DNA from: Ignatzschineria rhizosphaerae
GTDB taxonomy: Bacteria; Pseudomonadota; Gammaproteobacteria; Cardiobacteriales; Wohlfahrtiimonadaceae
Length of the DNA stretch: 64,000 nt
Assembly (NCBI RefSeq): GCF_022655595.1
Contig: NZ_CP093379.1
Span: 1,608,501 to 1,672,500 of the forward strand
Direction: 5' to 3'
Shown: piece after piece, positions 43,159 to 48,897 of the stretch
Layout of the letters: every line of letters begins with the position of its first letter
Position numbering within the stretch: the first letter of the stretch is position 1
Notes under the pieces: generated by a model
The model's input: only the letters and a program-made list of their open reading frames with translations
Told to the model about the DNA's origin: nothing
The model's database searches: none
Made by a program: the position numbers and the translations under genes

Positions 43159-43521
43159 CTATAAGGCAGATTCAGCAATCTCCTGCTTACGCTCACAGCA
43201 CTCTTTAAACTCAACCCTAATAGAAAACTTATGAATAGAACGATCCCTAATTCTTGCCTTTAAAGTAATAAGCTCATCAATCAGTTTTCGTTCATTGTCT
43301 GCAGCTTCCATCGCATCTGCCTTTAAAGCATTAAACTTTTCTAAGTAGAGATACTCCTCAGACCAAGGATCTACTTCTGGCAAGTTCTCAATATTAATAA
43401 TAGGATTTTGATAATCTTCGCGAATCTCTAAATCTACTTTAGCCACTCGACTAATAGAGATCATCAGCATTGTGATAATCACAAGCAAGGGCACGCCTGC
43501 TACAACGGATGCTGTTTGCAA
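43159..43521 (-). pseudogene. Out-of-frame 3' part of the BCCT transporter gene
   Basis: This frame encodes TLQTASVVAGVPLLVIITML, the last membrane helix of BCCT transporters, and about 90 cytoplasmic residues (EIREDYQNPIINIEN, ERKLIDELITLKARIRDRS). It has no start of its own. It joins the upstream frame within a (CT)6 tract at 43525-43536: with five CT units the two parts would read through as one protein of about 603 residues. Confidence 0.85.
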
Positions 43522-44972
43522 AGTAGAGAGAGAGAGTTCACCCCTGTGATCTGACTAATAAACATTAACGTCACCGGCATAAATGAGAGCGCAAATGCCC
43601 AAAAGAGACGATTCCAACGAAGAGGCTCATCTTCAATATTTCGCTGCACGACCGCTGCTAAAATATAAGACATAGAATCAAAGGTGGTTGCTGTAAAGAT
43701 AATGGCTAAAATCGTAAACAATCCAATAATTACTGGGGAAAATGGTAAGGAATCGAGCATTGCATAAATCGCAGCGGTATCCCCTTGCGATTGTAAAATC
43801 GCCACTAGATCAACCTCCCCCGATAATTGCAGATGTAGACCGTAATTTCCTAAAATAAAGAAGAAAAAAGCACAGCCTAAAGAACCAAGTGTAATACTAC
43901 CGGCAATCATATTTCGGATCGTACGACCCCTAGAGACTCTTGCAATAAAAAGACCAATCGTTGGTGCAAAAACTAGCCACCAAGCCCAATAAAATATAGT
44001 CCAATCTTGGGGGAAATTAGATTCTGGAAAGCCATCTAATCCACCAAATGGCTCTGTCCAAGTAGCCATGGAGAAGAAATTATCAAACATCAACCCAATT
44101 GATGCAATACTCGTATTCATAATAAAGACCGTAGGTCCTACAATAAATACAAAGAGTAATAAAATGACAGCGCCCCAAATCGTGACATTACTTAAAAATT
44201 GAATGCCGCGCTTTAAACCCGCATAGGCGGAATAAGCAAAAATAATGGTTGTCACAAGTAAGACGATCACTTGTGTTTGAATATTAATTGGCAATCCAAA
44301 GAGCTTATGGAGCCCTTCTGTAATTAAAGGTGATGCTAAGCCAAGACTTGTCGCTCCTCCACCTAAAATGCCAAATATAAAGAGGATATCAATCGTTTTT
44401 CCCAAATAACTATTACTATGCTTTTCCCCTAAAACAGGCTTTAACGCTACCGAGATCTTTAGAACAGGCTCTTTACGAACATAGAAAAAGTAAGCAATAG
44501 GAATTGCCGGCACAAGATAGATCGCCCAAGCAATTAATCCCCAATGAAACATCCCATAAGTTGATGCCCATGCAATCGCCTCATGACTACCAGACTCTAT
44601 ATTAAAAGGGGGTGTAATATAATAATAAGCCCACTCAATACTTCCTAAGTAGAGAATGCTTGCGCCAATACCACTACTAAAAAGCATCGCTCCCCAAGAT
44701 GGCGTACTAAATTCTGGCTCACAATTTTCTTCACCCAGTTTGATATAACCAATATCACTAAAGAAAATATAGATCAGAAAAAAGAGCGCTGCCAAGCCCA
44801 TTAATAAATAGAAAATCCCAAATTTATTTGTAACAAAATCCTTTGCTTGAGAGATCCAAACATCTCCTGCTTCTGGCCAAATAATCAGAGGGATTACAAC
44901 AAGTAATAATAAGAATATTGCACCAAAAAACGTATAAGAATCGATTAACTTCCAATTGAGTATTTTCTTCAC
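43500..44972 (-). CDS. BCCT-family betaine/choline/carnitine transporter, frameshifted near the C-terminus
   Basis: A 490-residue frame covering about 11 of 12 helices. Family strings: FSSGIGASILYLGSIEWAYY near residue 100, GMFHWGLIAWAIYLVPA near 140 and TIFYWAWWLVFAPTIGLFIA then RVSRGRTIRNMI in the second half. BCCT proteins take up betaine, choline or carnitine, some by sodium or proton symport, some by exchange. After ITGVNSLS the frame runs to LLCKQHPL and a stop because of a (CT)6 tract. GTG is the start, with weak AAAGG upstream. The missing end contains helix 12 and the cytoplasmic tail. Confidence 0.85.
   Translation of the reverse strand: MKKILNWKLIDSYTFFGAIFLLLLVVIPLIIWPEAGDVWISQAKDFVTNKFGIFYLLMGLAALFFLIYIFFSDIGYIKLGEENCEPEFSTPSWGAMLFSSGIGASILYLGSIEWAYYYITPPFNIESGSHEAIAWASTYGMFHWGLIAWAIYLVPAIPIAYFFYVRKEPVLKISVALKPVLGEKHSNSYLGKTIDILFIFGILGGGATSLGLASPLITEGLHKLFGLPINIQTQVIVLLVTTIIFAYSAYAGLKRGIQFLSNVTIWGAVILLLFVFIVGPTVFIMNTSIASIGLMFDNFFSMATWTEPFGGLDGFPESNFPQDWTIFYWAWWLVFAPTIGLFIARVSRGRTIRNMIAGSITLGSLGCAFFFFILGNYGLHLQLSGEVDLVAILQSQGDTAAIYAMLDSLPFSPVIIGLFTILAIIFTATTFDSMSYILAAVVQRNIEDEPLRWNRLFWAFALSFMPVTLMFISQITGVNSLSLLCKQHPL
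43525..43536 (-). repeat. (CT)6 dinucleotide tract inside the BCCT gene
   Basis: Six CT units on the coding strand between the codons for Val-Asn and Thr-Leu-Gln-Thr. Loss of one unit restores the full transporter frame, so the tract is a candidate slippage site. Confidence 0.7.
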
Positions 44973-45164
44973 ATTTAGCTTTTAACCTTTGATAAAAAAC
45001 ACTAATCCATGTTAGCACACTGATTTTTTATTCCTATCTTCCTTAGTATCATTCAGATTAAAACGTCCTTTACATCACTTTAGAGTATTAAGATCTTCCT
45101 ATAAAAAAGGGGGCATCTCTTAAAGATCCCCCCTTTTCCCACTTACGGGATCTATTCAATCTTG

Positions 45165-46379
45165 CTACATAAATCTTGTTGCCACTAAATAGATAATGGT
45201 TCCAGCATAGTTACCGATCACATATCCAACCGTACCAATTACTAAAATAGGACCGACTAAAGTTCTCCAGCCCTTACTAATAGCCATCGCAGCGGCCGTT
45301 GTAGGACCTCCAACGTTTGCGTTACAGACCAGTAATATCTCTTCTAAAGTAAATTTAAAGAGCTTACCGAACACTAAGCTAACAATAAGGTTAATCAACA
45401 TAATCATCACCACAAATAGTAGTAATAATGGCGCATTTTGTATAATCATCGGGATAGATGCAGGGATTCCAATCACTACAAAAAAGAGATAGACCATATA
45501 AGTCCCTAACTCTTGGCTACCATTTAACTTTTGGAAGGGTTTTTGAAATAAGAAGATTACGATAAATGTTAAAGTAGTTAAGATCAGATAAGGGTCTGTA
45601 ATAAAACTGACTAAAATCTCTAAAGCAAGGTTATCAATCATTGAACGAAGCGGTTTTAACCACGCCGCTAAAGTAAATGAAATCCCCACAATTAAAAGCG
45701 AAGCACCCATATTAATGGCAATATCTTTTAAAGAGATATTTCGTGGTTGCCAGTAGCTTGCGGCAAGATTTTCATCACTGTCATTGACATTTTTTTCCAC
45801 CTCATCAATATACGGCGTTTTAAAGCGCTTACGAAACCAACTCATGGCAGAAATGGTTAAAAGGACAATAAAATAGAGCGCCATGATAAGATTATCCGCC
45901 ACAATCGTTGATGCGACCATATCTTTTGTCGGTTCAAGCTTTGCAGTCATTGCCGCAAAGTTTACGCCTCCCCCAATATAAGATGCACCAATCATCCCAC
46001 TAATTTTATCAAGCTCTGGGATGACATTTTTGAAGGTAAAAAAGGCAATAAAGGCCCCTAACATTGTCCCGATAGAGCTTAATAAAAAGATAAAGAGTAA
46101 TCGGCGACTCTCTGTAAAAATACTTTTTACATTCACTTGGAATAAAAGGAGAGGGATAGCGATAGGAACAACATAAGCCCAAACCATATCGTAAACAGCG
46201 GCATCTGTGGGAATAATTTTAAAACTAGAAAAACTAATAGCAATAATCAGCGCAATCACAGCTCCAGGAACTTTTGCAGACCACTTATAGCGCTGCTCAA
46301 TAATAATTGATGCTGATGCTGCTACAAATAAAAATGCCAATAGCAGCCATGTTTGATCGGCAGATATTAATGTATTCAT
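45165..46379 (-). CDS. DUF819-family membrane protein (YjcL-like)
   Basis: A 404-residue membrane protein with about 10-12 helices. VPGAVIALIIAI near residue 37, SYIGGGVNFAAMTAKL near 133, and the C-terminal LLVCNANVGGPTTAAAMAIS and GTVGYVIGNYAGT are typical of DUF819 transport-like proteins. The paired glycine-rich half-helices suggest a secondary transporter. It lies directly downstream of, and probably cotranscribed with, a VanX-like dipeptidase gene (69 bases), so it may import the dipeptide or carry its products (inference). Confidence 0.85.
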   Translation of the reverse strand: MNTLISADQTWLLLAFLFVAASASIIIEQRYKWSAKVPGAVIALIIAISFSSFKIIPTDAAVYDMVWAYVVPIAIPLLLFQVNVKSIFTESRRLLFIFLLSSIGTMLGAFIAFFTFKNVIPELDKISGMIGASYIGGGVNFAAMTAKLEPTKDMVASTIVADNLIMALYFIVLLTISAMSWFRKRFKTPYIDEVEKNVNDSDENLAASYWQPRNISLKDIAINMGASLLIVGISFTLAAWLKPLRSMIDNLALEILVSFITDPYLILTTLTFIVIFLFQKPFQKLNGSQELGTYMVYLFFVVIGIPASIPMIIQNAPLLLLFVVMIMLINLIVSLVFGKLFKFTLEEILLVCNANVGGPTTAAAMAISKGWRTLVGPILVIGTVGYVIGNYAGTIIYLVATRFM

Positions 46380-46448
46380 CTCCCTCTTCTCCTTTTTATA
46401 AATTGTTATAAATTGTTATTCATCCTGAACTGTCTCAATGATTAAGGT

Positions 46449-47189
46449 TCACGATGACTTTTTTACATCCTTAATATCCGTAATACCATAAAATGCCTTA
46501 TTTTCGGTGTAATACCCCCAAAGCTGATTGCCAAAATCAAAATGCCACCATTCAGAAGGCAGATTACTAAAACCAACAGACCTCATCCCATGAATGAGAA
46601 GGCGGCGATTATCACGAATCTGTCTTGTCTCTAAATCATCACTCTCTTCAAAGTAATGACTCCAAGAAGCTTCATCCATCGCATCAAAACTTGTTCCCAT
46701 ATCTAGTTCTTGATTAGACGCCACATCAAATAGCGTTAAATCGATAGATCCCCCCGTTAAATGTGGGCTAGGCGCCATTGGATCTTGGCTTGGTTTTGCC
46801 ACAAACTGATTTAGAATCTCATCAATCTGCGCATCATTAAAATTGGGATATTCAACGACTAAGTTGTCTCTAAAATCGTGTCGTAATGCTGCTTGAACCG
46901 CGATGGGTCTCCAAGCATCTAAGACTAAAATCCCGAGGTTTTCAGGTAACTTTTCCAATAGTTGATAGAGTTTTTCTAAGATGGATTCTCGGGTATAAAC
47001 AGGCAATAGTGCCCCTGCAATATGGTCATGATAATAAGCAGAATAAACACTTAAACGAGCACTTGGCTTAATCTCCACTAAAGCTTCATGGCTTAATACA
47101 TTCTTTGTATCAATTAAAACTTCCCGTACTTTTTCCCACATCAAATCGCTATTTTTGACTGGCTTTTGAAGCCACTCCTGCGCACTCAT
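46449..47189 (-). CDS. D-alanyl-D-alanine dipeptidase-like protein (VanX/M15D)
   Basis: A 246-residue metallopeptidase of family M15D. Zinc ligands appear in the expected order: histidine and aspartate in SPHLTGGSIDLTLFD (near residue 125) and histidine in EWWHFDFGNQ (near 215), with the catalytic Glu in SEWWH. LVLDAWRPIAVQAALR near residue 88 holds the conserved arginine. No signal peptide, so it acts in the cytosol on D-Ala-D-Ala or another dipeptide. AGGGGAA precedes the ATG at 47189. No vancomycin-resistance genes are near; the partner is a DUF819 protein, suggesting peptide catabolism. Confidence 0.9.
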   Translation of the reverse strand: MSAQEWLQKPVKNSDLMWEKVREVLIDTKNVLSHEALVEIKPSARLSVYSAYYHDHIAGALLPVYTRESILEKLYQLLEKLPENLGILVLDAWRPIAVQAALRHDFRDNLVVEYPNFNDAQIDEILNQFVAKPSQDPMAPSPHLTGGSIDLTLFDVASNQELDMGTSFDAMDEASWSHYFEESDDLETRQIRDNRRLLIHGMRSVGFSNLPSEWWHFDFGNQLWGYYTENKAFYGITDIKDVKKSS

Positions 47190-47342
47190 ACGCTTCCCCT
47201 GTGATTTTTTATTATTAATGATCCCCAACATTGTGGTGATTTGTGACTAAAGTTTAAAACGATTTACAAAAACTAGCAATGCTTACATGACAAACTCTTT
47301 TCATGCGCGAACCGCTCTCCACTTTTACTAAGCACTCACCTA

Positions 47343-47484: not shown

Positions 47485-48522
47485 TTAAACACGAGCATAA
47501 GGCTCTAAACCTAATACCATACGACCATTTTTTGTGGCGATATTAATGGCTTCTTCAAGGTTTGTATAGCGGCAACCTGTAATAAGAAGTTTTAACTCCT
47601 CCCACATATCCCCATCACTAAATGGGAGCATGTAATCTGCGATATTATCCGTTCCTACAGCGACAGGAACTCCTGCTTTTGCAAGTTCATCGGCAGGTGT
47701 GATCGCATTACGTGTTGGCCCTTGCTCTTCACGACGAGGGCTATCAATCCATGCAAATGGACAAGCAATCACCATCATTTGTGCTTTGAGCATTTTCTCA
47801 TAAAGCATTTGACGATAGGCTTCATCATGCGCCGTAATAGAGATACTATGGATCGCCACAACTCTTCCTTCCATACCATGCTCGATTGTTTTATCAGCAA
47901 CTAACTCTGTCTCTTTCTCTTCTTTAGAGTTAAATTGGTCAACGTGAACATGAACCATTTTTCCTTGCGATTTAGCCGTTTGTAATAAGACATCCATATG
48001 AACGGCATCCATTCCTTCTCCATGATCACGTAAATCACGGCGAGGAAGACCGCCGATAATATCAACCTTATCAGCACCTTTATCAAACCAGTAACGCGCT
48101 TCTTTATCGATCACCCCTTTTAAGGTTTGATTCACAAGTTTAATGGTAATATCTTTCTCGTAATTAAGACGCGCACGAAGTGCTGCATTAATTGCACGCT
48201 CTTCAGCAATTGGGTCAACGTCAATAAAGCTACCCACAGCGGTAACACCTTGCTCGATCATACGCTCAATCCCCATAGAGAAATGGCGATAATAATCTTC
48301 CTCTGTCATATTTGCTTTAATACGATCAAGCGTGTCCCATTTTTCAATTAATGTTTGTGTTTGATAAACCTCAAAGCCCGCATAGTCAATAGTAAAAGCA
48401 CGGTCACCATGCATATGCGCATTGACCCAACCACCATTTTTTTTAATATTATTTAATAAATAAGCTTTTAAACTTCTAGTGTCCGTGTAAATACGATGTT
48501 CTTTAGCGATTAATGTGCTCAT
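47485..48522 (-). CDS. Amidohydrolase-superfamily protein, cytosine-deaminase-like
   Basis: A 345-residue metal-dependent hydrolase. The HxH metal site is in WVNAHMHGDRAFTID (near residue 36), followed by VHVHVDQFNS (near 195), AIHSIS (near 228) and the catalytic aspartate in VAVGTDNIADYM (near 298), the order seen in cytosine deaminase and related enzymes. The substrate, a cyclic amide, pterin or purine/pyrimidine-like compound, is not determined. AAGGAAA precedes the ATG. Upstream is a 39-codon leader ORF ending in a terminator hairpin, so expression is probably set by attenuation. Confidence 0.85.
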   Translation of the reverse strand: MSTLIAKEHRIYTDTRSLKAYLLNNIKKNGGWVNAHMHGDRAFTIDYAGFEVYQTQTLIEKWDTLDRIKANMTEEDYYRHFSMGIERMIEQGVTAVGSFIDVDPIAEERAINAALRARLNYEKDITIKLVNQTLKGVIDKEARYWFDKGADKVDIIGGLPRRDLRDHGEGMDAVHMDVLLQTAKSQGKMVHVHVDQFNSKEEKETELVADKTIEHGMEGRVVAIHSISITAHDEAYRQMLYEKMLKAQMMVIACPFAWIDSPRREEQGPTRNAITPADELAKAGVPVAVGTDNIADYMLPFSDGDMWEELKLLITGCRYTNLEEAINIATKNGRMVLGLEPYARV

Positions 48523-48595: not shown

Positions 48596-48624
48596 AAAAA
48601 AAAACCTCCATTACAAATGGAGGT
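48596..48624 (-). terminator. Attenuator hairpin in the amidohydrolase leader
   Basis: ACCTCCAT / ATGGAGGT with a 5-base loop and eight or more T's on the minus strand. It lies about 75 bases before the amidohydrolase start and overlaps the stop codon of the upstream small ORF. Confidence 0.8.
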
Positions 48625-48730
48625 CTCTTTTCGTAAATTTTTTAATAGTAATAGAATCAAAAGAAATAGCGAAACGTCGTTGCATAGTGACGTTTTTTTT
48701 CATTCGTGATGTGCCATGATGCTGGGTCAT
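48611..48730 (-). CDS. Candidate leader peptide (39 aa) of the amidohydrolase gene
   Basis: ATG at 48730 is preceded by AAAGGAAATAGACG. The peptide starts MTQHHGTSRMKKNVTMQRRF and ends KKFTKRDLHL. Its TAA (48613-48611) falls in the loop and first base of the 3' arm of a rho-independent terminator, so a ribosome finishing translation would block hairpin formation. A second inverted repeat, AAACGTC / GACGTTT, lies inside the ORF (48695-48672). It resembles a cis-acting leader peptide; I do not recognise it as a described family. Confidence 0.6.
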   Translation of the reverse strand: MTQHHGTSRMKKNVTMQRRFAISFDSITIKKFTKRDLHL

Positions 48731-48897
48731 CGTCTATTTCCTTTTATCAGATTCCAAACAAACGAGTACATTCTAGGCGCTAAAAAAAAATTTGCAATCT
48801 TTTCTTGAAATTTCTTAATTTTATCGTTTTTTATCACAATAAAGCTCAGCCTTTTTAAAAGAGATAAAGCCAGATAACCGGATACTTTTATCTTATT

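Follow-up and report, generated by a model that had tools for sequence, protein, structure and literature searches.

The region studied lies on the minus strand of a 64-kb stretch of DNA from Ignatzschineria rhizosphaerae, referred to here as the window. A gene encoding an amidohydrolase of the PRK06886 type is preceded by a short leader with a predicted promoter, a small ORF and an intrinsic terminator (Table 1). An earlier note made from the sequence had described a Shine-Dalgarno sequence (SD), an ORF of 39 codons with its TAA inside a terminator, and an amidohydrolase gene downstream, all of which were found. The TAA (48613-48611) sits inside the terminator loop; the stem, ACCTCC/GGAGGT, occupies 48624-48604 and the 9-U run 48604-48596, and the amidohydrolase start at 48522 is 73 nt past the U run. 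Only two copies of this terminator pattern were present in the 3.07 Mb genome, the second following a tRNA-Lys gene. Downstream of the amidohydrolase, and read in its direction, come genes for a VanX-like dipeptidase, a DUF819 membrane protein and a BCCT transporter (window positions 43500-47231); since they did not adjoin it in the other genomes read, they probably do not form one operon with it.

Table 1. Positions of features in the window (upper eight rows) and of dihydroorotate-dehydrogenase-like genes at related loci (last row).
Feature	Position	Strand	Basis and remarks
Promoter, TTGCAA (48797-48792), 16 nt, TAGAAT (48775-48770)	48770..48797	-	Promoter scan; region kept in 9/9 Ignatzschineria
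Predicted transcript start, GUUUGUUU	48756..48763	-	Putative +1 G at 48763, six bases past the -10
Leader-ORF Shine-Dalgarno, AAGGA	48739..48743	-	Sequence
Leader ORF, 39 codons + TAA, MTQHHGTSRMKKNVTMQRRFAISFDSITIKKFTKRDLHL	48611..48730	-	ORF list; conservation in relatives
Hairpin within ORF, AAACGTC...GACGTTT	48672..48695	-	Candidate RNA polymerase pause hairpin; statistically weak
U-rich tract ahead of terminator, CUAUUUCUUUU	48659..48669	-	Pairing with leader SD region AAAAGGAAAUAG possible
Intrinsic terminator (putative attenuator)	48596..48629	-	14-bp stem folded in isolation, -15.8 kcal/mol, 9 U
PRK06886-type amidohydrolase, 345 aa	47485..48522	-	NF005365, PF01979, PDB relatives
Dihydroorotate-dehydrogenase-like gene near PRK06886	L048:7097-8164, L054:7108-8163, L055:4598-5695, L138:5060-6109		PF01180

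The second hairpin that the earlier note had placed within the ORF does exist, here and in some relatives, but its energy (-5.5 kcal/mol) was only slightly better than that of shuffled sequences (-4.3 kcal/mol), and in a scan of three sequences it did not stand clearly above shuffles. Dinucleotide shuffles of this leader contained an SD-led ORF reaching the terminator in about 7% of cases and any such ATG-initiated ORF in about 38%. With a chance of that order for the SD-led ORF a single locus proves little, and it was therefore left to the relatives to decide.

The amidohydrolase matched the NF005365/PRK06886 model at 463 bits (cut-off 340) as well as PF01979, and its best matches in the PDB were cytosine deaminases, in keeping with its first description as cytosine-deaminase-like. 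Judged by sequence, which also places its fold, the protein is related to CodA; CodA cytosine deaminase (1k6w) and AtzC (2qt3) are among its relatives. The residues aligned with the metal site and the catalytic histidines and aspartate of CodA (H36, H38, H193, H225 and D292 in PRK06886) were invariant. CodA Glu217 aligned with Gln196, invariant in 12 PRK06886 proteins, and in AtzC this position is occupied by His (PMC4577212). The Gln in place of Glu217 makes a plain cytosine deaminase role doubtful, although AtzC shows the position to be variable, and the chemistry of PRK06886 cannot be read off the alignment. A literature search on PRK06886 returned nothing, and the family carries the name 'hypothetical protein'.

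All nine Ignatzschineria genomes contained the amidohydrolase gene, the other eight being 92–97% identical to that of the window. The order of elements was the same in 9/9: a TTGC...TAGAAT-type promoter, an invariant TACTCGTTTGTTT at the predicted start, a leader ORF of 34–50 codons and the terminator. In the other Ignatzschineria leaders the start codon was preceded by a purine-rich stretch. ORF and hairpin both follow the conserved promoter, so that transcription starting downstream of the hairpin, a refuting condition of the earlier note, was not borne out. Terminators were of CCTCC/GGRGG type with 8–9 U, or CCTTC/GAAGG in genome G004, and the ORF stopped in the terminator loop in five genomes (the window genome G000, G003, G004, G006 and G007) and 2–6 nt short of the stem in the other four. 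Compensatory pairs, which the earlier note had proposed as a check on the hairpin, were found in G004, G006 and G007: between the two closest species a C-G pair in the window genome is replaced by U-A in G004, and an A-U pair is changed to G-C in G006 and G007. The peptide, on the other hand, was barely conserved between congeners. Comparison of leader codons gave 3 synonymous and 10 nonsynonymous changes between G000 and G004, and 3 and 24 between G000 and G006, a drift close to neutral. This goes against the preference of the earlier note for nascent-peptide arrest, in which the peptide, as in the TnaC or SpeFL type, would stall the ribosome with a small-molecule ligand. Such an arrest would suit a leader that ends at a hairpin and the conservation of the first 13 leader residues in a second family (see below), but we consider it very unlikely: peptides were almost wholly different between lineages, those 13 residues coincide with an inverted repeat, and the position of the ORF end was variable, lying anywhere between 6 nt ahead of the stem and more than 100 nt past it.

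The same arrangement was found in other lineages. A leader ORF and terminator preceded the gene in Orbaceae (Gilliamella, Orbus, Frischella, Schmidhempelia and Zophobihabitans), nearly all of whose loci kept it, and in two MAGs of other lineages (L024 and L055); here the terminators were of TCCTCC/GGGGGA type, mostly with 8 U. In Gilliamella the ATG was mostly 52–57 nt ahead of the stem and its frame reached or passed the stem. Many Orbaceae leaders contained no clear SD, which counts against the interpretation given below. Relatives that kept the terminator also kept the ORF, contrary to the other refuting condition of the earlier note (a hairpin kept without the ORF), the sole exception being L053, where an ORF of 14 codons stops before the stem. 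Two side observations concern this family: a conserved box, CTCAAAAATAATACTTTAACTATTTCATTTATTTA, lies upstream of the leader promoter (for example about 260 nt ahead of the gene in L040) and is a possible regulator site, and one genome, ESL0721, contained five PRK06886 loci (L051, L052, L057, L060 and L061), of which several lie close to the end of a contig and one is broken; they are either true copies or assembly duplicates.

In a further family, to which we give the inferred name Pasteurellaceae-like, the amidohydrolase gene was present in 94/101 genomes. A terminator was found in 18 of the 30 loci examined; its absence from the other 12 is a further point against the interpretation below. 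In all 18 terminator-bearing loci the frame beginning MLL.KN was open through the terminator, with 1–6 stops in each other frame, and in 16 the ORF extended beyond the amidohydrolase start. Among the 12 loci lacking the terminator, six ORFs were broken after 7–14 codons. Indels ahead of the terminator in an eight-sequence alignment were multiples of three. In shuffles the tail stayed open with a probability of 0.2–0.5 per locus; the joint improbability of 18 open frames is large, although the loci are related to one another. The arrangement draws its significance from the relatives: all nine Ignatzschineria genomes, almost every Orbaceae locus and these 18/18 keep it. A nearly invariant 40-nt inverted repeat (AATGTTATTAAT.AAAAATC.G.GAATTTTT.ATAACATT) surrounds the leader start about 180 nt ahead of the gene in L144-L173 and could act as an operator or at the RNA level; repeated ACCRATA motifs occurred upstream of the promoter in many Pasteurellaceae-like loci.

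The terminator might merely end the upstream gene, with the ORF a product of chance: in the window genome, L022 and L024 that gene is nadK, reading in the same direction. We regard this as highly improbable. The gene upstream of the unit varied between lineages, and in Orbaceae and Pasteurellaceae-like loci, where genes other than nadK are found there, ORF and terminator stayed with the amidohydrolase; moreover, a conserved promoter separates nadK from the ORF, and the other frames are closed.

What is kept across lineages is an open frame up to the hairpin, the hairpin itself and U tracts. A tract of four or more U within 50 nt of the stem was present in 24/27 representative leaders (10.9 expected), while A4 occurred in 9 of the same leaders vs 9.5 expected. 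Total U before the stem was only modestly above A, the genomes being AT-rich, and the excess was inconsistent, A exceeding U in several Orbaceae leaders, which again counts against the reading proposed below. Runs of a codon were absent from the leader ORFs in every lineage and residue usage was broad. Thus, although a leader ORF plus terminator is also what an attenuator of the trp or his type responding to amino-acid starvation would have, such control is extremely improbable, as the earlier note had already judged for the window.

Structure in the leader ahead of the terminator was moderate in two groups (mean z of -2.0 in Ignatzschineria and -1.9 in Pasteurellaceae-like genomes) and absent in Orbaceae (-0.2), so that a conserved RNA fold in this part of the leader was rejected as a core feature. 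Covariation in a middle hairpin of the Pasteurellaceae-like leaders was weak. These values bear on an alternative, also named in the earlier note, in which the regulated step is initiation of leader translation: RNA structure would sequester the SD and start, or a factor or ligand would bind them, and the frequency with which ribosomes get as far as the terminator would be set in this way. Candidate structures are a long-range helix in Ignatzschineria, where folds of the window genome paired AAAAGGAAAUAG with CUAUUUCUUUU, and an inverted repeat AATGTTAT...ATAACATT that includes the start codon in the Pasteurellaceae-like genomes, whose 5' element is nearly invariant. The z values of these two groups agree with such control; the lack of excess structure in Orbaceae does not, no aptamer-like sequence was shared among the leaders of the lineages, and no Rfam family matched them at gathering score. 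We consider this alternative fairly unlikely.

Attenuation of pyrBI is the textbook case of nucleotide-dependent coupling. The E. coli K-12 pyrL leader, used as positive control, showed the same anatomy as the PRK06886 leaders: a leader ORF that extends to an intrinsic terminator near the gene, a U tract before the stem (U5, starting 29 nt ahead of it) and a stem with a C-rich 5' arm and a G-rich 3' arm (CCCCTC/GAGGGG, with U8-GCC within the ORF). A pyrL hairpin ahead of the U tract (CGTCT...AGACG) has a possible counterpart at the matching place in the statistically weak hairpin at 48695-48672. U8-GCC or U8-GTC also ends many terminators of PRK06886 leaders, a likeness too short to tell descent from convergence. 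The two differ in the controlled gene, a PRK06886 amidohydrolase here and aspartate carbamoyltransferase (ATCase) there, and in the end of the ORF, which in Ignatzschineria lies within the loop or shortly ahead of the stem, whereas pyrL runs beyond it, ending 3 nt before pyrB. UTP-dependent coupling at pyrL is established (PMC10135430, PMC5021804, PMC3641672). The predicted GUUUG start six bases past the -10 matches the 5'-GUUUGC-3' start of the E. coli carAB P1 transcript (PMC6245113), which with codBA and upp exemplifies reiterative transcription at a UTP-sensitive start; it was invariant in Ignatzschineria but only partly present in other lineages, which counts against a pyrBI-type mechanism.

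The leader is probably an attenuator like that of pyrL-pyrBI, coupled to translation and sensing UTP. RNA polymerase would start at about 48763. With plentiful UTP it would outrun the first ribosome, so that the hairpin forms and transcription stops; with scarce UTP it would slow at the U tracts, letting the ribosome that translates the leader close up and cover the 5' half of the terminator stem; transcription would then continue into the amidohydrolase gene. The peptide sequence would be irrelevant, only an open frame bringing the ribosome to the hairpin being of account, and the GUUUG start could add a second UTP-sensitive layer. We base this reading on the promoter, ORF and terminator kept across lineages despite different upstream genes; on the frames open through the terminator where the others are closed, and the decay of ORFs where the terminator is missing; on peptide drift, U-tract enrichment and the pyrL control; and on the carAB-like start and the lack of ATCase described below. 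The proposal of the earlier note, a leader-ORF attenuator whose hairpin would be covered by the ribosome during translation, is likewise supported. That note also knew of no described case of this arrangement for the enzyme family, which appears to hold for PRK06886 as far as searched; the arrangement itself is already known from pyrL-pyrBI. The same anatomy could in principle read anything that alters ribosome-polymerase spacing. In the mgtCBR leader, ORFs and attenuators serve other signals (PMC3641672), and a coupling sensor of the mgtL/mgtCBR kind, responding to Mg2+, ATP or translation capacity, would follow the same ORF-terminator logic. The mgtCBR leaders share the coupling of leader translation to termination, but the PRK06886 leader is without their Pro-codon control region and Mg2+ transporter gene, and three features, namely the U tracts, the kinship of the enzyme with cytosine deaminases and the genomes devoid of recognisable ATCase, speak for pyrimidines, making another signal unlikely.

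Synthesis of the pyrimidine ring ordinarily begins with the ATCase reaction. None of the 47 PRK06886 genomes scanned had an ATCase above cut-off; three sub-threshold matches were examined and proved to be ornithine carbamoyltransferases. Among 377 sampled Gammaproteobacteria, 346 (92%) had an ATCase above cut-off, and the three with PRK06886 over cut-off all fell among the 31 without, an overlap with a chance of about 5e-4 if the two were independent, but few lineages are represented. The link between PRK06886 and the absence of ATCase thus reflects few lineages and not many independent events, and members of the Pasteurellaceae-like family without PRK06886 also had no ATCase, which counts against it. 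Searches with PyrC models found nothing convincing in the window genome and most other PRK06886 genomes, several Orbaceae included, while Orbus and Zophobihabitans possess PyrC; the sub-threshold matches examined in G001 and Gilliamella were dihydropyrimidinase and allantoinase. As some PRK06886 genomes are MAGs, single gene absences weigh less. Ignatzschineria, including the window genome, kept a class 2 PyrD without recognisable PyrB or PyrC. A divergent dihydroorotate-dehydrogenase-like gene of about 355 aa follows PRK06886 in Orbus, Zophobihabitans and L055 (Table 1); in Gilliamella and Schmidhempelia it is elsewhere, beside an ApbE-like gene and a large flavin-reductase-like gene. Haemophilus influenzae, of the Pasteurellaceae, has been described as a pyrimidine auxotroph (PMC13328217).

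The CodA relationship, the ATCase-less genomes and the dihydroorotate-dehydrogenase-like neighbour in some loci suggest indirectly that PRK06886 probably serves pyrimidine supply in bacteria that do not build the pyrimidine ring de novo. We put forward only tentatively, as a doubtful though real possibility, that PRK06886 replaces ATCase in these mostly dihydroorotase-less Gammaproteobacteria, for example by closing or opening a ring in an amidohydrolase reaction that supplies dihydroorotate or uracil, under a pyrBI-style UTP attenuator perhaps inherited from a lost pyrBI. A conserved pyrBI-style design before PRK06886 in ATCase-less bacteria predicts a pyrimidine-supply role in Pasteurellaceae-like bacteria, bee-gut Orbaceae and Ignatzschineria, and so gives a family of 'hypothetical proteins' a function that can be put to a direct test; it may also be relevant to the retention of PyrD in Ignatzschineria, where neither PyrB nor PyrC is recognisable.
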